In this document: positions 40,954 through 55,716 of the stretch, piece after piece
Numbering within the stretch: the first letter of the stretch is position 1
Layout of the letters: every line of letters starts with the position of its first letter
NCBI RefSeq assembly: GCF_006274605.1
Contig: NZ_CP040846.1
Location: 186,001 to 250,000 of the forward strand
DNA from: Thermococcus indicus
Lineage (GTDB): Archaea; Methanobacteriota_B; Thermococci; Thermococcales; Thermococcaceae
Direction: 5' to 3'
DNA length: 64,000 nt
Notes under the pieces: model-generated
What the model was told of the DNA's origin: nothing
The model's database searches: none
The model's input: only the letters and a program-made list of their open reading frames with translations
Made by a program: the position numbers and the translations under genes

Positions 40954-42891
40954 TCAGCGCCTTCCGTATCTCCTCAGCAGGAGCCCCAGTACCAGGAGCG
41001 CTCCGAGGATTATGGCCAGCCCCAGGTACGTCTGACCGCTTCCTTTGCTCACGGTAACCCTGATGCTGGTCTCCTTAGTTTTCTGGTCGCTGATGGCGTT
41101 GAGGGTGATGAGATAGTCCCCGGCATCCACGTTCTCGGGAACCGCCACCTCAATTGTGAACTCTACTTCGTCGTCCCTTTCCAGAGATGGCACTTTCCGC
41201 GGCTCCACCTTTACGTTCCATCCCTTGGGAGCCTTGACCTCCAGCCCGACATTGGTCAGCGGGCTGGTGCCCGTGTTATACACCCTGACCGTGGTCTTCG
41301 CCTCGTCTCCAGCGTTCACCTTCAAGCTGTACCGTTCTAGAGTCACCGTCAGTCCGTAGCTGCCGGTCAGTCTTGCGGTGAGGTTTATCTCCCGCTCTTC
41401 ACCGCTCCCCGCTGAGGCCACCCGGAGGGTCGAGCGGTACGTTCCGAGTTCCGCCGTGTCCGGGGGTATCAGGAGCACGTAAAGTTTTTTCTCCTCCCCT
41501 GACCTGACGTATGCGCTGGTTATCCCAGTGTGCGATGATGGGTCCTCCACCACCATTCCGCCCCAGTCTTGCGGTACGCTCAGGCTCAGTGAGTACGTAT
41601 CGTCCTCCCTTCCGAGATTTCTCAGGATCACTTCGTAGGTGAAGACCCTTCCGAGAACCTGGCTCTTCGACGGCTCGGGAACACTGATGTCCATGTAGTA
41701 AGGCAGTCTGCGCATTCTTACCTGGAGTTCCTTTTTCCTGCCTGCCTTTATCTCGACACTCCTCTCAACGTCGCGGTAGGATTCCTTCGAGACCCTCACG
41801 GTGTAGTGCCCCTCTGGAGCTTCGATTGAGGCGGTTCCATCGGAAAGTGTCTTTGCTTCCGTCACAGTCTTCCCGTCCTGAATGAGCTCCACCCTGGCAC
41901 CGGCCACGTAGGTTCCCGAGTCCTCATCCGTGACCCTGACCGACAGTGTGCCGTTTTCACCGGCGTGGGTTCTGTTCACGTAGACCCCAAGCGTCTCCTC
42001 AGCATTCCCAGCCTTCACCGTAACGTTGTACATGCCCACTGGGGTATCGCTGGGAACGCCTATGACCAGCCTCACGGTGCTCTCACCGGAGACCCTCACC
42101 GCACGTACCGGCTCTCCCCCCGCGAGGAACTTTGCGCTCCATTTCTCTGGAATCTCTGCACTCAGGGAGACCACTGTGGGCGATGGAGAACTCAGACGGA
42201 GCTGGAATGATACACTCTCCCCGGCTTCCACTTCCTTCACCGGATAATCACACTGGATTCCGACGCCTCCCTCCTTTACCGTGACGGTGAGCTTCAGCTG
42301 GCTTTCACCGGCGTGGAGGAGAACATCAAACCTGCCCGTTTTCGTGGACGTTTCAATGGCCACGAGAACCTGGGCACTCTCTCCGTGCCGCAGGTAAATG
42401 CCGGTGATTTCAGAACTCCCCTCCGTTATCCTGGCTCCCCATCCGGAAGGGACTTCCACGGAGAGGGGGACGAACGCGTCTCCTCCGTTGTTCCTCACCG
42501 TCACCGAGAAGGTCACCTGTTCCCCGGGTTTGGCTACCTTGCTGGGGAACTGGGTTTCCAGTGCTATGCTGCCGGGAAGGCTTTCCACGCTAACGCTGTC
42601 TCCGGAGAGTATGATATGAACCTCACCCTCCTCCGGCTTAAGGCTGCCCACCGTCATGTTCAGGCCTTCCGTAACCTTCACGGTGTCCCCGAATAGGAGA
42701 ACGTACGTGGTTCCGTTTATCCTGAAGGCGGCTCTCCCATCGCCTGAAAAGTCCGCGAACTCTATGGGAATCCCGTTGACCGTCACGCTCTGCCCCACGC
42801 GAAGGGTTAGGCTGATGGTTTCAGCGGATGCCGCGGGTACGGCCAGAAGGAGGAAAAAAATGACTGCCGTGAGGGCCTTCTTCATCTCCAT
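40954..42891 (-). CDS. NEW3/CARDB-type exported surface protein
   Basis: About 645 residues. Signal peptide (LTAVIFFLLLAVPAASA), several beta-sandwich repeats of the NEW3 alpha-galactosidase-type kind (each with PxGW or similar, for example VPSGWGA, IPEKWSA, VPQDWGG, APKGWNV), a carboxypeptidase-regulatory-like domain at about 315-395, and a C-terminal helix (TYLGLAIILGALLVLGLLLRR) anchoring it. Its ATG overlaps the permease stop, so it belongs to the ABC operon 44809-40954 and probably acts as its outer partner. Confidence 0.82.
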   Translation of the reverse strand: MEMKKALTAVIFFLLLAVPAASAETISLTLRVGQSVTVNGIPIEFADFSGDGRAAFRINGTTYVLLFGDTVKVTEGLNMTVGSLKPEEGEVHIILSGDSVSVESLPGSIALETQFPSKVAKPGEQVTFSVTVRNNGGDAFVPLSVEVPSGWGARITEGSSEITGIYLRHGESAQVLVAIETSTKTGRFDVLLHAGESQLKLTVTVKEGGVGIQCDYPVKEVEAGESVSFQLRLSSPSPTVVSLSAEIPEKWSAKFLAGGEPVRAVRVSGESTVRLVIGVPSDTPVGMYNVTVKAGNAEETLGVYVNRTHAGENGTLSVRVTDEDSGTYVAGARVELIQDGKTVTEAKTLSDGTASIEAPEGHYTVRVSKESYRDVERSVEIKAGRKKELQVRMRRLPYYMDISVPEPSKSQVLGRVFTYEVILRNLGREDDTYSLSLSVPQDWGGMVVEDPSSHTGITSAYVRSGEEKKLYVLLIPPDTAELGTYRSTLRVASAGSGEEREINLTARLTGSYGLTVTLERYSLKVNAGDEAKTTVRVYNTGTSPLTNVGLEVKAPKGWNVKVEPRKVPSLERDDEVEFTIEVAVPENVDAGDYLITLNAISDQKTKETSIRVTVSKGSGQTYLGLAIILGALLVLGLLLRRYGRR

Positions 42892-43889
42892 CACCTTATT
42901 TCCGCCCGTACGAATCCAAGATATGCCGCGACAAATCCTATTATCAGATACGCCAGCAGGAAGACGATTTCCCTCTTGGCGAAGGACAGGCTCTCGGTCA
43001 GGCTGTACGTCGGCTGTTCTGGGCCCTCCATTCCGGCGGAATACATCGCGTCCTCCCAGGATTGTGCGTGCGGGTTAAGGACATACTGCGCTATCTGCTG
43101 GAAGTCCGCCCTTGGGGACAGGCTGCTGACCGTTTCGAGGGTGTCAAAGTATTTCTTGCTCCACTCCTGTATCTGTTCGTCGTACTCCTCCCACAGCTTT
43201 TCATACGCCTGCAGCTCCTCGATGGTCACGTTCTCGGAGTAGTCCATGAAAGCCCCCTCGGGTGGCTGGGGCTGTGGTCCCGCCACGTGATCTGCCACGA
43301 TTGGCGCCACGGCTTCAAACACCACCGTGACGGCCAGGAAGAGAACCAGGGCGTACATCAGGGCGCTGCCGCTGGACTTGGAGTGTGCCGAGAACGCAAC
43401 GGCTATCCCGAAGAACACCAGCAGGTACAGGTAGGCGAAAAAGAAGTACACCGCCAGTCTGGTGATTGAAGTGCCGTCCACAGTGACCCCCATCCACATC
43501 AGCGTTCCCAGAACGACGAGGAACGTTATCACCACCGCTACCGCCAGTGTCATGGCTCCCCCGAGGAGTTTTCCCAGTATCACCTGATCCCTGTAGACAG
43601 GATGGCCCATGAGGACCTTGAGAGTCCTGTTCTCCCTCTCACGGGTTATCGCGTCAAAACCGAGCGCGAGGGCGAATATTCCCCCGATGAGTCCAAGGTA
43701 GTATGTGACCCCCCACATGACTTCGTAGACCTTTGGACTTTCCCCTTCCATGCCCCTCCAGGACATTATGCCCGTTTTTACCTGTGCCAGTGCGAGCAGG
43801 GTTATGAGAAGCAGAAACCCGAACAGAACCAGAAACCGCCTGCTGGTCATATAGTCACGGAACTCCTTGCTCGCTATTGCCCCTATCAT
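42891..43889 (-). CDS. ABC-2 type transporter permease
   Basis: 332 residues: N-terminal MIGAIASKEFRDYMTSRRF, six hydrophobic segments and one large extracellular loop of about 90 residues (about 205-300) rich in acidic residues. Typical ABC-2 permease with FDAITRERENRTLKVLMGHP as the coupling region. Starts 4 nt inside the ATPase gene and ends overlapping the surface-protein start. Likely exports a lipid, glycan or peptide. Confidence 0.87.
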   Translation of the reverse strand: MIGAIASKEFRDYMTSRRFLVLFGFLLLITLLALAQVKTGIMSWRGMEGESPKVYEVMWGVTYYLGLIGGIFALALGFDAITRERENRTLKVLMGHPVYRDQVILGKLLGGAMTLAVAVVITFLVVLGTLMWMGVTVDGTSITRLAVYFFFAYLYLLVFFGIAVAFSAHSKSSGSALMYALVLFLAVTVVFEAVAPIVADHVAGPQPQPPEGAFMDYSENVTIEELQAYEKLWEEYDEQIQEWSKKYFDTLETVSSLSPRADFQQIAQYVLNPHAQSWEDAMYSAGMEGPEQPTYSLTESLSFAKREIVFLLAYLIIGFVAAYLGFVRAEIR

Positions 43890-44809
43890 TCGTCCTCCCT
43901 CCCGTAAACCAGCTCGAGGAATACCTCCTCCAGCGTTGGTTCATGCAGGTGAACATCGATGACGGTGTAGCCCATGTCCGTTAGTTCCTCCACCAGCTCC
44001 TCTCTGATGTCCCGGGATGCGTAGACGGTCAGTCTGTTGCTTCCCGCTTTGCGCCACTCTATCACTTCTGTGTTCAGGTCATTAAGAGCGAGCGGCTGCT
44101 TTGTTTCCACCGTTATAAAGACCCTCCCCTCAATGAATTTCCGCTTTATCTCCTCCTGGCTGCCGCTTATGAGGAGTTTTCCCCCGGATATTATCCCTAT
44201 CTCATCGCTTACCTCCTCGACCTCGGGGAGGATGTGGGACGAGAAGAACACCGTTTTTCCATCTTTCTTCAATCTGCGTATCAGTTCCCTCATTTCCACC
44301 GCTCCCCGGGGGTCAAGACCGTTGGTCGGTTCATCGAGGAAGAGAACCTCCGGGTCGTTCAGGAGGGCCTGGGCCAGCAGAAGGCGCTGCTTCATACCGG
44401 TGGAGAATCCCCCCACCTTTCTGTCCGCGGCGTCTTCGAGTCCCACGAGCTCGAGCAGTTCCTTTGCCCTCTTCTTGGCATCTTCTTTGGGAATCCTGTA
44501 GAATTTGGATATGTACATGAGGTTATCGAAGGCCGTCAGATTGGGGTAGAGTCCGCCCTCCGCGGGCATGAACCCGCTTATCCTTTTGACCTCCACCGGC
44601 TTTTCCTGAACGTCTATCCCTGCCACGTAGGCCCTGCCCTCCGTTGGCTGAATGAGGCCCAGGAGAAGAAGTATCGTCGTTGTTTTGCCCGCTCCGTTTG
44701 GTCCCAGAAATCCGTAGACGGTCCCTTTTTTCACGGTTAGGTTTAGGCGATCCACGGCGGCAATGCCGTCATAAACTTTCGTGAGGTTTTCAGTTTCGAT
44801 TATGTTCAT
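43886..44809 (-). CDS. ABC transporter ATPase
   Basis: 307-residue nucleotide-binding subunit. Walker A GPNGAGKTT, signature FSTGMKQRLLLA, Walker B VLFLDEPTNGLD, switch His in FFSSHILPEVE, then a regulatory C-terminal domain of about 80 residues as in DrrA-type exporters. ATG 44809 has GGTGAT 5 nt in front; the longer frame to 44881 has no support. First gene of the three-gene exporter operon. Confidence 0.93.
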   Translation of the reverse strand: MNIIETENLTKVYDGIAAVDRLNLTVKKGTVYGFLGPNGAGKTTTILLLLGLIQPTEGRAYVAGIDVQEKPVEVKRISGFMPAEGGLYPNLTAFDNLMYISKFYRIPKEDAKKRAKELLELVGLEDAADRKVGGFSTGMKQRLLLAQALLNDPEVLFLDEPTNGLDPRGAVEMRELIRRLKKDGKTVFFSSHILPEVEEVSDEIGIISGGKLLISGSQEEIKRKFIEGRVFITVETKQPLALNDLNTEVIEWRKAGSNRLTVYASRDIREELVEELTDMGYTVIDVHLHEPTLEEVFLELVYGREDE

Positions 44810-45015
44810 CTTAATCACCCAACATAGTAGGAAGCTCACTTTAATATAAGCGTTTTGGTTTGGATAGGTTAAGGTAAACAATACTTATTTCGTACGTTGT
44901 CTTTGTGATGCGTTGGTTTTGCTTTAGTGTTCCTCCGCAGGGACAAGATAAAACATTTTCAGTTCAGTAAACCTTTTAAGCACCGCTGAACAAGCATGGA
45001 CTGGGGTGTGTCTGA

Positions 45016-45591
45016 ATGGAGAAGGATGGTAAACCCCGATTATCGTACGAGACAACCTTCAGGGTGAAGGTTCTCATCCTGGCCCTCATCTTTGGAATAG
45101 CTATATTCATGATAGTCTATTATCCCATCATCTCCCACCAGGTTGACCCGTTTAAAGTTGAGTCCCCCCGGGGCCAGATACTGCTCGCCCAGAACTTCTC
45201 CGTTGCAGGGATCAACTACACGAACGCCGTTCCGTTCACCGCCAAGAACAACGCCCTCGTCCTGGGGGGAAGTGATGAGCTGGACGAAACCCTGACGATT
45301 ACCGTGTCCACACCGCAGTGGTGCGCTGATCTGTGGGTCTGGGGAGGCTCGGCCAACGGGTGGGTGAGGAAGTACGAGTGTGCGAGGGAACTCCAGCTGA
45401 GCAAGTACGCCTTCAACAGGGTTCCAATCCACGAGGCCAAGGAGATGGCCCGCTGGAGCCTGGAGCCGGGATACGTCATTGTTTTCCACAAGAACGGCCC
45501 GGTTAGGAGATATGAGCTCGTCAACTTCACCGTGACCTACGGGGGAGAAAGGGATTGGGGAGCCTTCAAAGTGTCCTTTAAAAGCTCGTGA
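45016..45591 (+). CDS. Membrane-anchored protein, tandem paralogue 1
   Basis: 191 residues with one N-terminal hydrophobic segment (VLILALIFGIAIFMIVYYPII) and an extracytoplasmic beta-rich domain with two cysteines (WCADLWVWGG, YECAREL) likely to pair. Ends in VNFTVTYGGERDWGAFKVSF, nearly identical in pattern to the following gene. A CTTTTAAGC box about 35 nt upstream. Not recognised; secreted domain of unknown role. Confidence 0.72.
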   Translation: MEKDGKPRLSYETTFRVKVLILALIFGIAIFMIVYYPIISHQVDPFKVESPRGQILLAQNFSVAGINYTNAVPFTAKNNALVLGGSDELDETLTITVSTPQWCADLWVWGGSANGWVRKYECARELQLSKYAFNRVPIHEAKEMARWSLEPGYVIVFHKNGPVRRYELVNFTVTYGGERDWGAFKVSFKSS

Positions 45592-45600
45592 GGTGTTCTC

Positions 45601-46128
45601 ATGAAACTCTCCTATGAAACTGCCTTCCGCCTCAAGGCCCTCTCCGTGGCGGTACTCTTTGGCCTGGTGATATTCTACATCGTGTACTACCCGATAATAT
45701 CCTACAACCCGGTGCCGTACGGCGTTGCCTCGCCCAAGGGGCAGCTGCTGCTCATGAAGAACATAACGTTCGGCGGCATGGAATGGGAGAACGCCGTCGA
45801 TCTGTACAACAACCTGGTTCTGAAGGGCGACGAGGACTACGGGGACTACGTGGTTCTTGAGCTCAAGACCCCCGGCTGGTGCATGGACGTGGTCGTTTGG
45901 AGCGGGACCGCTTATGTTAGAAAGGCAGAATGTGTTAGAAAGGTCACTATATCCAGGTACACCTTCCGCATACCCCCCGGCTCATACTGGTACCTCGACG
46001 GCTCCTACCACCTGATACTCTACAAACCTGACGATGTTCCAGAGAACTACGAGATGGTTAACTTCACCGTCACCTACGGCCCGAAGTCCGACTGGGGGGC
46101 CTTTAAGGCGGCCTATCCAAAGAAGTGA
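45601..46128 (+). CDS. Membrane-anchored protein, tandem paralogue 2
   Basis: 175 residues, same plan as the gene 9 nt upstream: LSYETAFRLK start, one helix, WCMDVVVWSG...AECVRK cysteine pair, and VNFTVTYGPKSDWGAFKAAY end. The two genes therefore arose by tandem duplication and are probably co-translated (GAGGTG before this ATG). A partnership of the two domains on the surface is plausible. Confidence 0.72.
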   Translation: MKLSYETAFRLKALSVAVLFGLVIFYIVYYPIISYNPVPYGVASPKGQLLLMKNITFGGMEWENAVDLYNNLVLKGDEDYGDYVVLELKTPGWCMDVVVWSGTAYVRKAECVRKVTISRYTFRIPPGSYWYLDGSYHLILYKPDDVPENYEMVNFTVTYGPKSDWGAFKAAYPKK

Positions 46129-48602: not shown

Positions 48603-49163
48603 ATGAACCGGATTGCGAGTTACGCGCTTCCCCTCTGCTTCATTATTCAGGCGGTGCTCAACCTAGTTTTCTATGGCTTTCCCTCCCTTATGTTCTCCGT
48701 CCTGGTTCCCCACGGACTTTTCGGGTACATTGCATGGGCCCTTCCCCTTCTCGTGCTCGGTTACTTCGCGACCGGAGTCCTCTCACTCTACGCTCTGTCC
48801 TTCCTCAGCGCTCGCAGGGGGAAACAGTTTGGGGCGGCATATTTTGGGATCGGTTCCGTCGGTTCGGCCCTGGTTCTCGTGGATGGAACTTACGAAACTC
48901 CCATGTTGTTGATTATCTTTGCCCTCTGGCTCGTTCTCTCCCTGATCGGGATCGTTCTCCTCTTCAAGGGCGTTGAAACCAGCAGGGCGCTATCCATTGT
49001 GGCGATGGTTCTCCTAGCCATATCGGCCGTTGTTAGTGCTTCCCTGGCTCAGTGGGTCGTCGAGGACTACTACGCCCACGTCCACATAGGGGAAATCCCC
49101 GAAAACGCCACCGTTATTGTAGCCTACCCTGAAAACGTCAGTCCTCCGAACGGGACGGGCTAA
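48603..49163 (+). CDS. Membrane protein, unknown (186 aa)
   Basis: Five hydrophobic segments (about 5-27, 36-60, 73-92, 99-120, 128-150) followed by a short extracytoplasmic tail (EDYYAHVHIGEIPEN...). No known motif. GTAAATATACC about 28 nt before the ATG gives a very short leader. Probably conserved in Thermococcus; role unknown. Confidence 0.68.
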   Translation: MNRIASYALPLCFIIQAVLNLVFYGFPSLMFSVLVPHGLFGYIAWALPLLVLGYFATGVLSLYALSFLSARRGKQFGAAYFGIGSVGSALVLVDGTYETPMLLIIFALWLVLSLIGIVLLFKGVETSRALSIVAMVLLAISAVVSASLAQWVVEDYYAHVHIGEIPENATVIVAYPENVSPPNGTG

Positions 49164-49193
49164 GCTTTTAAGCTCGGTATCGAGGCTGGAATC

Positions 49194-49700
49194 ATGGAGA
49201 GGAAACTCAGGTACAGACGCGCTTCCTCGTGGGAATATGATTTAATCCTCCGCGAGGCCGAGAAGTACGGCGAGCTCAGGCACCACTTCTTTGCCGTGGT
49301 TGAGGGGAAATTCCGCGACGTCTACGCGGTAAATGAAACGGTCTGGGCCGAGATTGAGGGGATGCCCCTCAAACCCTACGCCTACGGAACCTTTGTGGGC
49401 ACGATAAAGGTGGACAAAAACCTGGTCGAGAAGTTCTATCCCAACGTCGAGTTCTTCTACTTCGTCGACGTTATGAAGAACTATGCCGTTCTAACACCCA
49501 AGGCGGGATTCCTCTTCACGACCGGTAAGGACGTGCCCAGGAGCGGCGTGAGGAGGTACGACTGGCAGGGGACGAAGAAGCTGGTGATCTACGACGAGAA
49601 CGGGATTATTCTTGGTATCGGCAGGATAAACCCCAAAAGCGGGAGGAAGTTCATTCTGAACGTTACCGACATAGGAGAGTTTCTGAGGAGGAAGCGCTGA
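49194..49700 (+). CDS. Nip7-like ribosome biogenesis protein with PUA domain
   Basis: 168 residues: an N-terminal pre-PUA domain starting [21 protein letters not shown], then a PUA RNA-binding domain with [20 protein letters not shown] and [13 protein letters not shown]. It matches what I remember of Pyrococcus Nip7, which binds AU-rich RNA and inhibits the exosome, and whose eukaryotic relatives act in 60S assembly. Own TTTTAAGC box a short way upstream of the ATG. Confidence 0.85.
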
Positions 49701-49773
49701 TTCAACAACCTTCCTTAACCGGTTAGGGGGTTGTGTAGAGAAAAGAAGACTAAAATTGAAAAAATGGATGAAC

Positions 49774-49914
49774 TCATTTCAACGTCACAACTATGGCATA
49801 GCCGTTGGTCGTTTTAAGTCCCGTCATCCTTATCGTTCCTTTTTTGGTGTTGGGCGCCACTCCAACGTTCCGAGGCCTTTGAGTACGCTGGCGGGTTATT
49901 CTGTCTACAATCAA
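49774..49914 (-). CDS. Small basic protein of 46 residues, unknown
   Basis: Begins with TTG at 49914; a full GGAGGTGAT ribosome site (49921-49929) stands 6 nt in front. The product starts MIVDRITRQRTQRPRNVG and ends NGYAIVVTLK; no cysteine, no membrane segment, strongly basic in the first half. It is divergent from the secretion cluster that begins at 50015, and both promoters lie in the same 100 nt. Not recognised. It fills most of the otherwise gene-free stretch 49701-50014. Confidence 0.66.
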   Translation of the reverse strand: MIVDRITRQRTQRPRNVGVAPNTKKGTIRMTGLKTTNGYAIVVTLK

Positions 49915-50014
49915 TAATTTATCACCTCCTTATTATGTTCTTCTTTAGTAAAATACTTTTGTTTAATGAAAAACTTTATATATTTTAATGACATTGTAAT
50001 AATGAAAACCTTCG

Positions 50015-50416
50015 ATGGGGGTGGTACGTACGAAAAAGCTCGTAAAACTAAGCTTGCTCCTCTGTCTCGTGAGTTTAGTTTCCATAGCCAGCGTGTCCGC
50101 GTGGACCTCAAAGACCGTCATCCCGTCGTCTGGATGCTGGAGAATGTACGACCACGATGCGGATACCCCTCAGTGGAGCCAGGATGAGTGGGTCTGGGCC
50201 GGCGTCTCTGGATGGCTGAACATCTGCGACGGAAGAATAACCGTCGACACTTCAACCGTGAAACATGTTGCGTACTGGTCTGGTGTCAAGGTGGACAGGT
50301 CCAAGGTGCAGAGATATACTGGGGCCCGAGTCTCCTTCACAAAGATACCCTACGAGAGGTATAACGGCGATCCAGGAGAGGCTTTCGCGTTAATCCCCCA
50401 CTTCTACAAGCACTGA
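50015..50416 (+). CDS. Small secreted protein, unknown (cluster start)
   Basis: 133 residues. Signal peptide at 7-29 (LVKLSLLLCLVSLVSIASVSA), mature part about 104 residues rich in Trp, Tyr and Asp with two cysteines (SGCWRMYDHD, NICDGRI) that could form a disulfide. CTTTATATATTTT at about 49974-49986 is a strong TATA element; the leader is about 7 nt. It lies first in a run of exported and ABC transporter genes. A secreted peptide, bacteriocin-like or surface factor are options; none is shown. Confidence 0.7.
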   Translation: MGVVRTKKLVKLSLLLCLVSLVSIASVSAWTSKTVIPSSGCWRMYDHDADTPQWSQDEWVWAGVSGWLNICDGRITVDTSTVKHVAYWSGVKVDRSKVQRYTGARVSFTKIPYERYNGDPGEAFALIPHFYKH

Positions 50417-50431
50417 CTTGGGTGACGTCGC

Positions 50432-51457
50432 GTGCGGGGTAAAATAATGCTAACCTTTTATGTTTTGATTTTTTATTTGGGGGCTACCGCAGTATCGGCC
50501 ACGCCAACCTGGCTTGAACCCGGAACCTACGTTACCTACGCGGTCATCGTTCCGAAGGACGCGAGGTTCGGGACGAACAGCGTCATGGTCAAGCTCGACA
50601 TGCTCAACGAGCGCTCCTTCGAGGCGCTCTATCCCTACCTTGTTAAGGCGGAGGGACGGAACGTCTCGCGGGACGAGAACTACGTTACCCCTCTCTGGCC
50701 GACCGGAACCTCCTACCTCACCTTCAGGGTCCTCTCCGTGGACAACAACACGGCCAAAATCCTCGTCAGGCTTGAGCTCCACGATGTGGCGATTGAAAGG
50801 CCCGACCTCGCGAACGCGAGCGTGCTCGTGCTTTCCGAGGTTCTCACCCTTGACTTGAGGACCGGCGCCTACGTTATAAACGGCACGCCCGTTGGCAGGC
50901 CGAGCTTCTTCGTAGACCCCTCCAATCCGCCGGGCCCCGGCGCCGTCCTCCTGAACGTCACGGTTCCGGAAGGTGGAAACTGGGTGATGGGAGTCAAAAA
51001 CCTGAGCTACTCCCGTTACAGGGACTTTGAAGTCCTGACGCACCTGCGCGCCTTTCATCCGCCGTTCATCTACCTCGAATCTGACGTGGTGAGGTTCAAC
51101 CTCCACGGCCCGGACTACAGCTTCTCAGGGGGCACGGGCTTCTCGGCCCTCTACGACCCCTCTACCGGCCTGATGATAGCGTCCGACATGTTCTCAACCC
51201 CTCCCGAACTCGTTCTCATGGGTGTGGTTAGCTCCACGATAGAGGACGTGAACGCCTCGCGGGCCCTCCGCAAACTCCTCGCCGAGAACTCTAAGAAACG
51301 CTGGCTTCAGGGCTGGAACCTCTACGCGACCAACGTGGAGTTTCGGGATGAGGGCCCCTTCGAGAGGCCCGGCAGTCCCCTCGTGTACTACTTTGCCCTC
51401 TCCGTCCTCATAGCCATCGCGGTTGGCATCAGGGACCTTTGGAGGTGGGTTCGATGA
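50432..51457 (+). CDS. Exported membrane-anchored protein, unknown
   Basis: 341 residues. Signal peptide (LTFYVLIFYLGATAVSA), a beta-rich extracellular domain of about 290 residues, then a C-terminal helix (YYFALSVLIAIAVGIRDLW) and WRWVR tail. No catalytic motif or cysteine. GTG start with GGTGA 7 nt before. Its TGA overlaps the ATG of the ABC permease, so it is part of the transporter unit. Function unknown. Confidence 0.72.
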   Translation: MRGKIMLTFYVLIFYLGATAVSATPTWLEPGTYVTYAVIVPKDARFGTNSVMVKLDMLNERSFEALYPYLVKAEGRNVSRDENYVTPLWPTGTSYLTFRVLSVDNNTAKILVRLELHDVAIERPDLANASVLVLSEVLTLDLRTGAYVINGTPVGRPSFFVDPSNPPGPGAVLLNVTVPEGGNWVMGVKNLSYSRYRDFEVLTHLRAFHPPFIYLESDVVRFNLHGPDYSFSGGTGFSALYDPSTGLMIASDMFSTPPELVLMGVVSSTIEDVNASRALRKLLAENSKKRWLQGWNLYATNVEFRDEGPFERPGSPLVYYFALSVLIAIAVGIRDLWRWVR

Positions 51458-52224
51458 AAATCCTCTGCTGGGAGCTTGAAGACCCGCTCAACTTAGCCGT
51501 CTTCGCCTTTGGCTTCCTGCTCATCGGAACTTCCCTCTTCCTCAGGGGAATTCGGGTCTCAAATCACTTTATGGTGTCCCCGCCGAGCGAGGACTTCATA
51601 AGGGCTTTCTCTTGGAGAGCCATGGGCATCAGCGTTCCCCTTCTCTCGGACGAAGTTTACACCGCCTTCATGCTGACGGCGGTTCTCCTGGCATCGCTCG
51701 TCCTGCGGAACGACAGGGACACGCGCTTCGCCCTCTCGCTCTACTCCCTCCCCGTAGGGAGAAAGAGGCTTGTTCTCTCCAAGGTTTTAGCCGTTTTCAT
51801 AATGCTCTTCGTTGCATCTTTCGTCCCGTTCCTTCTGACCGTTCTTTACATCTTCGGCGACACAGGAAACTTCTTTCTCACGGCCTTCCTCTCAAAGGGC
51901 CTCCTTCCCTTATACCTGCTTTACTGGACACTGGCCGTTCTCTACGTGGTCGCGGTTTCCTCCCTTGTTGCCATGGGTTCCCCCAACACCTTCGTCTCGG
52001 TGATGGTCGGGCTCTCGGTTCTCTACCTGCCCCACTCGTTCGGAGTCTCTTCGTTGCCCCCGGCGGTTCTCAACTCGGCGATATTCCACGCCTACACTTC
52101 AGGCGTTTCTCCTTCCGGATGGTCCATGGAACTCCTCTCGTCCGCTTTCCTCCCCTGCGTTCTTCTCCCCCTTTTCCTCATTGCCCTGACTCTTTACCTC
52201 GCTGAAAGGAGGGACGTGAGGTGA
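51454..52224 (+). CDS. ABC-2 type permease (cluster)
   Basis: 256 residues with six hydrophobic segments; the central part has LRNDRDTRFALSLYSLPVGRKRLVLSK, the coupling region of ABC-2 exporters. ATG 51454 follows GGAGGTGG and overlaps the previous stop. It pairs with the ATPase at 52637. Substrate unknown; the flanking genes all encode exported proteins. Confidence 0.82.
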   Translation: MKILCWELEDPLNLAVFAFGFLLIGTSLFLRGIRVSNHFMVSPPSEDFIRAFSWRAMGISVPLLSDEVYTAFMLTAVLLASLVLRNDRDTRFALSLYSLPVGRKRLVLSKVLAVFIMLFVASFVPFLLTVLYIFGDTGNFFLTAFLSKGLLPLYLLYWTLAVLYVVAVSSLVAMGSPNTFVSVMVGLSVLYLPHSFGVSSLPPAVLNSAIFHAYTSGVSPSGWSMELLSSAFLPCVLLPLFLIALTLYLAERRDVR

Positions 52225-52640
52225 GGCTCATCAGGCTCATCCTCTTCCTCGTCGCGGCCTTCACGCTGGTGGCTTTCGCTGTTCAGCACGCCGAGCTCTC
52301 CAAGCCCTACTCGGACTTCGCAGTTGGAACCTCCTGCTCGGTCGTCCCGTCGGCGAGGGTTCTCGTTCTCAACATGAACGGGCAGGGCAACTACTCCGTA
52401 ACCTTCTACGACCCGGTGGAGGGCAGAGTCCTCTACTCCTCCACGCTCTTCGGTTCTGGAGGAGCAATCGTAACGCTCAACCACTCGGGCCCCTACTGTG
52501 TCGTGGTATCCTCGGAGGCACCTGCTTCCGTGGCAATCTCCGGCCGGGGGAGCTACCCGTCTTCGAGGGCCCTCTCAATTGAGTACCTCGTAGGCGGCAC
52601 CTCGGCGCTCCTATTCGCCCTCCTGGGGGTGAGGAGATGA
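52221..52640 (+). CDS. Two-helix exported protein (cluster)
   Basis: 139 residues: N-terminal helix (LIRLILFLVAAFTLVAFAV), a short extracytoplasmic beta domain with two cysteines (GTSCSVV, GPYCVVV), and a C-terminal helix (YLVGGTSALLFALLGV). GTG start overlapping the permease stop; its end overlaps the ATPase start. Sandwiched between permease and ATPase, it is probably a transporter subunit or accessory. Not recognised. Confidence 0.7.
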   Translation: MRLIRLILFLVAAFTLVAFAVQHAELSKPYSDFAVGTSCSVVPSARVLVLNMNGQGNYSVTFYDPVEGRVLYSSTLFGSGGAIVTLNHSGPYCVVVSSEAPASVAISGRGSYPSSRALSIEYLVGGTSALLFALLGVRR

Positions 52641-53293
52641 TAATCCGTGCAGAGCACCTCACGAAGCGCTTCGGCCACGTAACCGCGCTCGACTCGGTGA
52701 GCGTTGGAATCGGCGAGGGCGTAACCCTAATCCTCGGACCCAACGGTGGGGGCAAGAGCACTTTTCTTAACCTCTGCGCCGGAACTTACAGGCCGACGGC
52801 CGGAACCGTCAGGGTGTTCGGCGGAGACCCGTGGGCAGATGAGAGGGTTAGGGCGAAGTTCGGCGTTTCCTTCGACCCTCCGGCGCTACCAAGGCACAGG
52901 ACGGGCCGCGAGTGGCTTGAGTTCCTGGCCGAAATCCGCGGGGGTTCAATCTCCGGTATCGTTGAGGCTTTCTCCCTTGGGGGCTTTCTCGACAGGAGGA
53001 TTTCAACCTACTCTGCTGGCATGGCGAAGCGCCTGAGCATAGCCTCAGCCTTTGTGGGCACCCCCGAGCTGGTTCTGCTGGATGAGCCGCTTGCGAACCT
53101 TGACTTTGACGCAATACCCGAAATTGCCGGTCTGCTGAGGCACTTTGCCTCCGAGGGCATCTCAATGGTTGTAGTTTCCCACATATGGAAGCCCTTCGTC
53201 GAGTTCGCCGACAGGGCGGTTGTTATAGCTGGAGGGAAGGTGAAGCTCGATGGCAGCGTTGAGGAGGTTGTTTCTGCTCTCAATCTTATTTAG
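52637..53293 (+). CDS. ABC transporter ATPase (cluster)
   Basis: 218 residues. Walker A GPNGGGKST, a degenerate signature YSAGMAKRLSIA, Walker B LVLLDEPLANLD and switch His in VVSHIWKP. Short form without the extra C-terminal domain seen in the 43886 ATPase. Energises the permease at 51454. Overlaps the neighbours on both sides. Confidence 0.88.
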   Translation: MIIRAEHLTKRFGHVTALDSVSVGIGEGVTLILGPNGGGKSTFLNLCAGTYRPTAGTVRVFGGDPWADERVRAKFGVSFDPPALPRHRTGREWLEFLAEIRGGSISGIVEAFSLGGFLDRRISTYSAGMAKRLSIASAFVGTPELVLLDEPLANLDFDAIPEIAGLLRHFASEGISMVVVSHIWKPFVEFADRAVVIAGGKVKLDGSVEEVVSALNLI

Positions 53294-54869
53294 CATGCTG
53301 TTCGTACCGTTCGCGTCCCCAACGCCGGTGCTCTTTGAATTCAGCGGTCAAGTAAAGGTTGGGGATTTAAACGCGACAGCTCCGACCGTGCTGAACCTGA
53401 GCACCGGGGTGTGGCCGGTTGAGCTGTCCGCCGGGAACGTCACTCTAATCTTTAACCTGAGCATTGGCGACGTGCCCCTCGTTGTGAGGGTGGACGAGCC
53501 TCTCCTGGACGGGGCCCTGAGCGGATTCTCGACCGCGACCGTTTTCTTAGATGGGAGAAAAGTCCCCGCGCCGGAGTCCGAGGAAACACCGTGTATGTTG
53601 GCTCCAAACTGGACCGCCGGGGAGGGTATGGACTCGGCGATGGGGCCATCAAAGCCCGTCCCGATGGAGACGGTTCTCTTCGCATCGTGCCGCGTGAGGG
53701 ACTACCTCCTCCTTCCCAGCGGCCTGCCGGTGGCGGTTGAGTACGCGGGCGTTAAAAAATACTGCCTCGTCAAAATTTCGGCGGAGGGGGGCGGCTGGAG
53801 CTCCTATGGGGGCTGTTCCCGCCAGCCAGTTGAGAACGCCGTGGTTCCTCTCCCCGTGAGAATCCTCTCGAAGCCGGCCAACGCCACCGTTTACGTCAAC
53901 GACTTTCACCTTTTCGGGGAGTGGTTTACCCCGATGAGGCTCTACCTGCCCTTCACTCCAGAATTGAGCTCTTACAGCATCTCGCTCGGCGCTAACGGCT
54001 ACCCCTTTGTCTCCGGCGTCGTGGCTTCGGAGAAAAATCTCACCGTCTTCGCAGATCTCTCAGCACTGTCACGGGTGGTTTCGGTTCATCCGGAGAAGGG
54101 AACCCTCAAAGTCTCGACGAGGCCCTCCAACGCAAGTCTGGCGATTTTTGCGGGAAATCGGAAGGTTTTCTCCGGCAGGAGTCCGCTCAGGCTGGCCCTT
54201 CCCGCCGGGACGTACACCGTCAGCGCCTCCCTCCCGGGCTACGGGGGGATTGTGGAGAACGTGACGGTTCCGGTCAACGGAAGCGTCTCGCTGAACCTGA
54301 CCCTCAGCCCCCTGCCGGCTGAGCTCAACGTTACCACCGTCCCGTTGGGAGCGGAGGTGAGGGTCGGGAACAGAACGTGCACCTCTCCCTGCTCCCTGAA
54401 CCTGACCCCCGGTGTTTACAACGTTTCGGCCTCCCTTCGGGGCTACCTTCCAAATTCCACTCTCGTTCTACTGTCCCCGGGGGATTTACGGAACATTTCA
54501 CTGCAGCTCGTACGGAGGCCTATCCTCAGAATCCTAACGTCGCCAGGGGGTGCCACCGTCACGGTTGGCGAAAAGAGGTGCCTCACACCCTGCAACATCT
54601 CCCTGATACCCGGTAACTACAGCGTGACCGTGGAAAAAGAAGGTTACGAGAAAGTCTTTCTCATGGTTTCCCTTCACGTTGGTGACGTGACCATGGTTAA
54701 TGTTTCCCTGAGGGAAAGGCTTCCCCTCACGTCGTCATCCGAAACGGCCTCTCATGAAACCACCGGGACGGTGCCACGGTCTGTGGGGGGAGATTGGGAA
54801 CCAGTGCTGGCAGTTCTTGCATTGCTAATTGTTGCGGCTCTGTTTATTAAAATACGGAGGGGAGGCTAA
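53250..54869 (+). CDS. PEGA-repeat surface protein (cluster end)
   Basis: 539 residues. Signal peptide (RRLFLLSILFSMLFVPFASP), a large first domain (about 25-250), then three PEGA repeats from about 285 (each with GxYxVxxxxxGY) with paired cysteines in RTCTSPC and KRCLTPC, and a C-terminal helix (VLAVLALLIVAALFIKIRR). The PEGA fold is an extracellular beta-sandwich common in surface proteins. The ATG at 53250 overlaps the ATPase gene by 44 nt but gives the complete signal peptide. Likely the outer part of the transporter unit. Confidence 0.8.
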   Translation: MAALRRLFLLSILFSMLFVPFASPTPVLFEFSGQVKVGDLNATAPTVLNLSTGVWPVELSAGNVTLIFNLSIGDVPLVVRVDEPLLDGALSGFSTATVFLDGRKVPAPESEETPCMLAPNWTAGEGMDSAMGPSKPVPMETVLFASCRVRDYLLLPSGLPVAVEYAGVKKYCLVKISAEGGGWSSYGGCSRQPVENAVVPLPVRILSKPANATVYVNDFHLFGEWFTPMRLYLPFTPELSSYSISLGANGYPFVSGVVASEKNLTVFADLSALSRVVSVHPEKGTLKVSTRPSNASLAIFAGNRKVFSGRSPLRLALPAGTYTVSASLPGYGGIVENVTVPVNGSVSLNLTLSPLPAELNVTTVPLGAEVRVGNRTCTSPCSLNLTPGVYNVSASLRGYLPNSTLVLLSPGDLRNISLQLVRRPILRILTSPGGATVTVGEKRCLTPCNISLIPGNYSVTVEKEGYEKVFLMVSLHVGDVTMVNVSLRERLPLTSSSETASHETTGTVPRSVGGDWEPVLAVLALLIVAALFIKIRRGG

Positions 54870-54969
54870 TCTTGAGTCGGAACAGTTCCCTAATTCCCCG
54901 TAACTTTTTTAAGGTCTTGCCCCCATGAACTAATTGATAACAAAAAGTAACTAAAGGGGGTGATGCCCG

Positions 54970-55716
54970 ATGGTGGGGAGGGTGAGGACGGGCATCCCCG
55001 GGATGGACGAGGTTCTCCACGGCGGAATCCCCGAGAGGAACGTCGTTCTCCTGAGCGGCGGTCCGGGGACTGGTAAGACGATATTCTCACAGCAGTTTCT
55101 GTGGAGCGGCATTCAGAACGGCGAGCCCGGCATATACGTGGCACTGGAGGAGCACCCCCTTCAGGTCCGGGGGAACATGGCGGGCTTCGGCTGGGACGTG
55201 AGGAAGTACGAGGATGAGGGCCTGTTTGCGATGGTGGACGCGTTCACCGCGGGCGTGGGAAAGAGCAGGGAGTACGAGAGGTACATCGTCCATGACCTGA
55301 CGGATATCAGAGAGTTCATAGACGTCCTGAGAACGGCTATCAAGGATATCGGCGCCAGGAGGGTGGTGATAGACTCCGTCACTACCCTCTACATCAACAA
55401 GCCGGCGATGGCGAGGAGCATCGTGATGCAGCTGAAGAGGGTTCTCGCCGGTCTCGGTGTTACGAGCATACTCGTGAGCCAGATAAGCGTTGGCGAGAGG
55501 GGTTTCGGCGGGCCCGGCGTCGAGCACGGCGTTGATGGCATAATAAGGCTCGACCTCGACGAGATTGACGGCGAGCTGAAGCGCTCGTTGATAGTCTGGA
55601 AGATGCGCGGAACTAGTCACAGCATGAGGAGGCACCCCTTCGAGATAACGGACAGAGGAATCGTCGTTTACCCCGACAAGGTTCTCAAGAGGAAGGGAGT
55701 AATAGAACTCGAATGA
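54970..55716 (+). CDS. KaiC-like RecA-superfamily ATPase
   Basis: 248-residue single KaiC domain. Walker A GGPGTGKT at 30-37, [10 protein letters not shown] after it, Walker [11 protein letters not shown] in the middle. Archaeal single-domain KaiC proteins act as signalling or regulatory ATPases, often next to DNA-binding partners. ATG preceded by GGGGGTGAT; a TTTTTTAAGG box lies about 60 nt upstream. Followed after 26 nt by an HTH/coiled-coil gene, most likely its partner. Confidence 0.88.

Follow-up and report, generated by a model that had tools for sequence, protein, structure and literature searches.

Few groups of archaea, chiefly haloarchaea and Sulfolobales, are known to make protein weapons. 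Lactococcin 972-type loci encode an unmodified Sec-secreted protein with an associated ATP-binding cassette (ABC) transporter. Here we describe a cluster of six co-directed plus-strand genes, A to F, spanning 50015-54869 of a 64,000-nucleotide stretch of Thermococcus indicus (contig NZ_CP040846.1, positions 186,001 to 250,000; hereafter the window, to which positions refer unless another locus is named). Like the LanI plus LanFEG (NisI/NisFEG) arrangement, this locus appears to bring together a small secreted effector, a membrane-anchored exterior protein, and a dedicated ABC-2-type pump; NisFEG is described as expelling nisin (PMC4234265). We give about an even chance to the reading that the cluster is a bacteriocin-like secreted-effector/immunity cassette, made up of Sec-secreted A, anchored B, and a LanFEG-like transporter.

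A (50015-50416) encodes a small, predicted Sec-secreted protein of 133 amino acids, the candidate effector. Its signal segment (residues 9-27) belongs to a cleavable signal peptide that ends in VSA before a W and leaves a mature protein of 104 residues with two Cys; the start codon is either the ATG at 50015 or a codon just downstream. B (50432-51457), the candidate immunity protein, begins 15 nt after A and is an exported protein of 341 amino acids with hydrophobic segments at 5-23 and 315-333, the latter a C-terminal transmembrane (TM) anchor. C (51454-52224) is an ABC-2 type permease of 256 amino acids with six hydrophobic segments (PF12730, 3.6e-06; 27.5 bits against a cut-off of 27), whose sole NCBIfam match is a weak one to the SagH permease. 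D (52221-52640; 139 amino acids) has TM segments at both termini (hydrophobic 3-21 and 117-135) and an exterior domain, and its position between C and E is conserved across loci. E (52637-53293) is an ABC ATPase of 218 amino acids (PF00005, ABC_tran, 1.5e-21), and F (53250-54869) is an exported, C-terminally anchored surface protein of 539 amino acids with four PEGA stretches (PF08308, 1.8e-39). All of the open reading frames (ORFs) listed for the cluster are present, with the features that the original prediction had given them from the letters alone. The overlaps it had noted among genes B to F are also real, with C, D, and E each overlapping the preceding stop by 4 nt and F by 44 nt.

The likeness to LanFEG includes the ABC-2 permease (PF12730) and ATPase (PF00005) as well as the NCBIfam relatives of E, which among the best 25 of 200 matches are led by DrrA, followed by a lantibiotic-protection ATPase, both below cut-off. 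The cassette differs from lantibiotic loci in that A is a Sec-secreted protein of about 100 amino acids, B has a C-terminal TM helix instead of a lipid anchor, and D and F are extra. No lanthionine precursor or modification enzyme was found by Pfam and NCBIfam scans of the ten proteins encoded at 48603-55716. By analogy, the cassette may be LanI/LanFEG-like in its working while not being a lantibiotic system. It also differs from the lactococcin 972-type loci, as neither Pfam nor NCBIfam assigns A to a bacteriocin family. A further comparison is offered by the VARTIG modules of Thermococcales, patchy islands of this same archaeal order in which a hypervariable C-terminal part goes together with linked membrane proteins (PMC8416519). 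They are centered on a large immunoglobulin (Ig)-domain protein at the head of the island, whereas a Pfam scan found no Ig or CARDB family in A to F; ABC, PEGA, and LolA do not occur as words in the main text of that paper. Among known anti-phage defence systems, PADLOC returned only generic ATPase matches for E and none for A, B, C, D, or F, and phage families were rejected after a search as the identity of the cassette. We found no published description of the cluster in titles, openings of abstracts, and passages; a 2019 mBio survey of archaeal antimicrobial peptides lay outside this coverage and may contain part of it.

Gene order and the slot before B

Gene-neighborhood comparison across Thermococcales, proposed with the original prediction, revealed the same gene order in other genomes, so the cluster is more than a chance assembly. 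A profile of A matched 26 of 94 Thermococcaceae genomes (26 of 115 in the phylum), some of which carry only broken copies, while a profile of B matched 61 of the 115, all of them Thermococcaceae. B-C-D-E is a Thermococcaceae module; a search for B in 151 genomes of another archaeal phylum gave no match but, lacking a positive control, is uninformative. All 26 A-positive genomes are among the 61 with B. Absence of the small protein beside conserved ABC genes had been named as refuting the original prediction, and 35 of the 61 genomes with B indeed have no A-family gene, yet an unrelated small protein often occupies the slot.

Gene order was read from 33 + 17 + 54 stretches of these genomes; L191-L194, being duplicates of G-handle loci, do not enter the counts. 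There are 95 complete clusters, containing B, C, D, and E (a count that excludes L287, L288, and L295), and 29 of them have at least two B genes. The commonest strings are B-C-D-E (39), A-B-C-D-E-F (10, the type found in the window), and B-B-C-D-E (8), followed by A-B-B-F-C-D-E and A-B-F-C-D-E (6 each). F is found in A-type cassettes, and the B-C-D-E type is without it. Tandem A-B units share one transporter in L140 (A-B, A-B-B, A-B) and L201. In L200 (2-10094, in genome G081) and L287, B and F alternate several times after one A; the array in G081 suggests that F may be part of specificity too.

An intact A always lies directly upstream of a B (32 units, not including L205, where A is broken). 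In clusters that lack A, the position immediately before the first B is frequently taken by a small ORF encoding a signal peptide. The small secreted proteins form six BLAST groups without mutual links, with 32 members for A and 19, 9, 4, 1, and 1 for the others; profile comparison gives a probability of at most 10% for every pair, which does not by itself prove separate origin. Ten proteins of the non-A families have no match in Pfam. The 109 first-in-cluster B genes divide as follows: 32 come after an intact A, 33 after a member of the five other families, 1 after a broken A, and 4 after an unclassified gene, with 39 having no small gene before them. A small-ORF filter, applied with A excluded, was passed at 37 of 76 first B genes, compared to 78 among 668 control genes and a single one of the 37 internal B genes. 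Four non-A matches to this filter are unclassified: L276, a second locus each in L284 and L286, and L130, where the match is a fragment of A. The candidates at L201 and L276 were removed before family grouping. As the loci are related, these figures are counts and not independent events. Among B genes more than 25% divergent from a given B, the nearest one goes with a small protein of the same family in 64 of 66 cases (expected, 21.8). A second locus in the genome of the window itself (L153 6847-7257; G000:C1, about 1216.8 kb) has a small protein of the third family before B, with three Cys after the signal. With non-homologous small secreted proteins in the place of A at many A-less loci, the slot itself is kept, whereas what fills it changes. 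Decay is lopsided: a broken small gene beside an intact B occurs in L129, L130, L145, L160, L205, L244, L261, L277, and L288, and the reverse only in L136.

The A alignment has C41, W54, W61, and C71 as invariant residues. We compared A with its partners in the subtype containing tandem units, using 13 A-B pairs taken from 10 loci (Mantel test, 20,000 permutations). The part of A after the second Cys tracks the adjacent B (r 0.679, p 1e-4), also when F is controlled for (r 0.694, all 13 pairs) and when close relatives are removed (r 0.567, p 0.002), whereas across the 13 pairs the Cys-Cys part of A does not track B (r 0.009), nor B F (r -0.047). Mean protein distances over 12 units are 0.42 for the C-terminal part of A and 0.52 for B, compared to 0.13 for the Cys-Cys part of A, 0.14 for C, 0.18 for D, 0.15 for E, and 0.27 for F. 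In this subtype, B and the C-terminal part of A are hypervariable and vary in step, unlike the transporter. Moreover, for 13 of the 14 unpaired B genes of the subtype, another genome has an A-paired B that differs by no more than 30%, a pattern expected of orphan immunity genes.

A fixed site

The window's cassette lies between an upstream NIP7/UPF0113-like gene (49194-49700) and a downstream KaiC-like gene (54970-55716). In a survey of 30 loci around the NIP7/UPF0113-like gene, the two flanking genes are directly adjacent in 13 (with a gap of 89 nt in L213), enclose the A-F cassette in 6, and show neither arrangement within the 1.5 kb read in 11. By coordinates, G034 and G086 also have the cassette at this site, for a total of 8 of 61 genomes of the genus; G086, a fragmented assembly, contains one filled and one empty site. 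A-F is a cassette that is present or absent at a fixed site between two conserved genes. No target repeat was evident at the junctions. We also considered whether the cassette resides on viruses or plasmids and rejected this, as a scan of viral contigs with the A alignment confirmed no relative of A and a search of plasmids for B gave no match.

A TATA-like box, TTTATATA (49975..49982, plus strand), read from the sequence 33 nt upstream of the start of A, is probably the promoter of the cassette; similar boxes are located upstream of A in L128, L134, and L199. The original prediction had also included a divergent 46-residue ORF (49774-49914, minus strand). We dropped it, because only one of seven orthologous loci (L134) has an equivalent and the whole intergenic DNA there is 83% identical regardless.

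Elsewhere in the window, a second surface-protein/ABC group (40954-44881, minus strand) encodes a 646 amino acid protein with NPCBM-associated and CarboxypepD_reg domains, a probable permease (42891-43889), and a DrrA-like ATPase. The A-F cassette has a comparable ATPase/surface-protein pair close by in L128, L131, L134, L136, L198, and L199. Two similar membrane-protein ORFs of 191 and 175 amino acids lie in tandem at 45016-46128 (plus strand). A 54 kDa PEGA-domain protein, TERMP_00292, is listed as detected in Thermococcus barophilus supernatant (PMC10667668, Table 2).

Predicted fold of B

No Pfam or NCBIfam family is matched by A, D, or B (the 133-, 139-, and 341-residue proteins for which such a search had been suggested) or by the N-terminal portion of F. 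For A, a Pfam scan of 18 members with E allowed up to 10 brought up nothing beyond weak, unrelated matches, and its profile reached no better than E 0.23 against solved structures. The B model has a mean predicted local distance difference test (pLDDT) score of 81.7 (six sequences). VIA structural alignment, confined to Foldseek's own candidates, places LmcA first (Z 9.3, root mean square deviation 5.0, 196 residues), followed by YmcC-like lipoproteins (Z 7.8 and 7.3), vitellogenin, ApoB, and LIMP-2/CD36, with RseB at 4.0 and LolA3 at 3.6. Foldseek alone gave no match to the model at E 0.001, and the best E of the B profile against solved structures was 0.042. LmcA is reported to form an elongated, two-cavity beta-barrel; its kinship with CD36 and LIMP-2 is described in PMC8972800, and the LolA fold is described as common to RseB and LolA (PMC6363788).

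Based on the model, a lipid-cavity/LolA-like fold for the B ectodomain, akin to those of LolA, LmcA, and CD36/LIMP-2, has moderate support, and this structural likeness makes a lipid or other hydrophobic ligand of B plausible. B differs from the lipid-cavity proteins in having no sequence match to them and in being genetically tied to a variable small secreted protein.

Effector, lipid handling, or signaling

A secreted candidate effector, a co-varying anchored partner, an ABC-2 pump, orphan partner genes, and preferential decay of the effector gene fit a bacteriocin with its immunity genes. The tandem A-B units, the unrelated families found in place of A, and the presence or absence of the cassette at a fixed site also speak for this reading. 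Under this reading, A would be exported by Sec via its own signal peptide and fold outside the cell, probably with one disulfide, and would inhibit related Thermococcales without a matching B. B, anchored on the membrane of the producer, would bind or block its own A, possibly by covering A or the lipid target of A with the lipid-cavity ectodomain. C-D-E would act as an ABC-2 pump that clears A or an A-lipid complex from the membrane, comparable to LanFEG beside LanI, and F would hold the assembly in the space beneath the S-layer. Gene order, conservation, the exchange of A for unrelated secreted proteins, A-B co-variation in one subtype, orphan B genes, and the loss of A beside an intact B are observed; the killing activity, the contact between A and B, the pump substrate, and the role of F are the parts of this scheme that we infer.

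Several observations weigh against it. We know of no activity for any A, and the structure model of A is unusable (pLDDT 47.8, four sequences). Over the full set of 32 units, A follows B (0.72) no more closely than it follows C (0.79) or D (0.80). Within the subtype to which the window belongs (8 units), controlling for F removes the correlation between A and B (r 0.11, p 0.31), and there is no independent A-B signal. The 13-unit set was chosen after the tandem arrays were seen, and in only 5 of its 13 units is the nearest A accompanied by the nearest B. As the variable end of A adjoins B, linked recombination could also yield co-variation without contact. Of the 39 first B genes without a small gene, 8 have a decayed one and 31 have no relic, and B is duplicated also where no small protein is found. 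Finally, L136 (8215-13059) retains an intact A next to B and permease genes that are each broken into two pieces, a state that an active toxin should not permit; A may be inactive at this locus, or else the immunity reading does not cover everything.

An alternative that we regard as unlikely is the handling of envelope lipids or lipoproteins, with B as a Lol-like anchored lipid carrier, C-D-E moving a lipid or lipid-linked glycan, F linking to the S-layer, and the small proteins serving as cargo or accessory factors. The resemblance of B to lipid-cavity proteins (LmcA, YmcC-like, RseB, LolA3) and the many genomes with B-C-D-E but neither A nor F would suit such a role. Housekeeping, however, would not readily explain why A and B are hypervariable on a far less variable transporter, why A-B units are repeated in tandem, why B genes occur as orphans, or why unrelated proteins replace A, and no B match was obtained in 54 of the phylum's 115 genomes. 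The same co-variation, orphans, and family replacement would be expected of a ligand and its receptor, and A may be a secreted pheromone or self-recognition ligand, B its polymorphic receptor, and C-D-E a signaling or uptake machine. We consider this a little less probable still, given that Pfam and NCBIfam scans found no kinase, regulator, or signaling domain in the cassette and that B lacks a cytoplasmic domain of appreciable size.

Export of A as cargo of the ABC transporter, as the original prediction proposed, is very improbable. The tight co-directional operon that includes A would favor it, but A has its own Sec signal, the permease is split beside an intact small gene in four loci (L136, L204, L242, and L281), and the transporter is retained at many A-less loci. 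What stands of that proposal is one system centered on the small secreted protein.

Returning to the effector/immunity reading, a broader form can be advanced more tentatively, at somewhat less than an even chance: a polymorphic archaeal conflict system across the Thermococcaceae. In this system, small inhibitors secreted by Sec and belonging to at least six mutually unrelated families would each have a dedicated membrane immunity protein of lipid-cavity fold and would share an ABC pump. The C-terminal end of the inhibitor and the immunity gene would be exchanged together on a near-constant transporter, and orphan immunity genes would be kept against the inhibitors of others. Genetic modification is possible in some Thermococcus strains, which makes the idea open to direct test. 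If it is correct, the Thermococcales would possess a widespread bacteriocin-like system with readable pairs of inhibitor and resistance genes, and several currently nameless protein families would gain a function.

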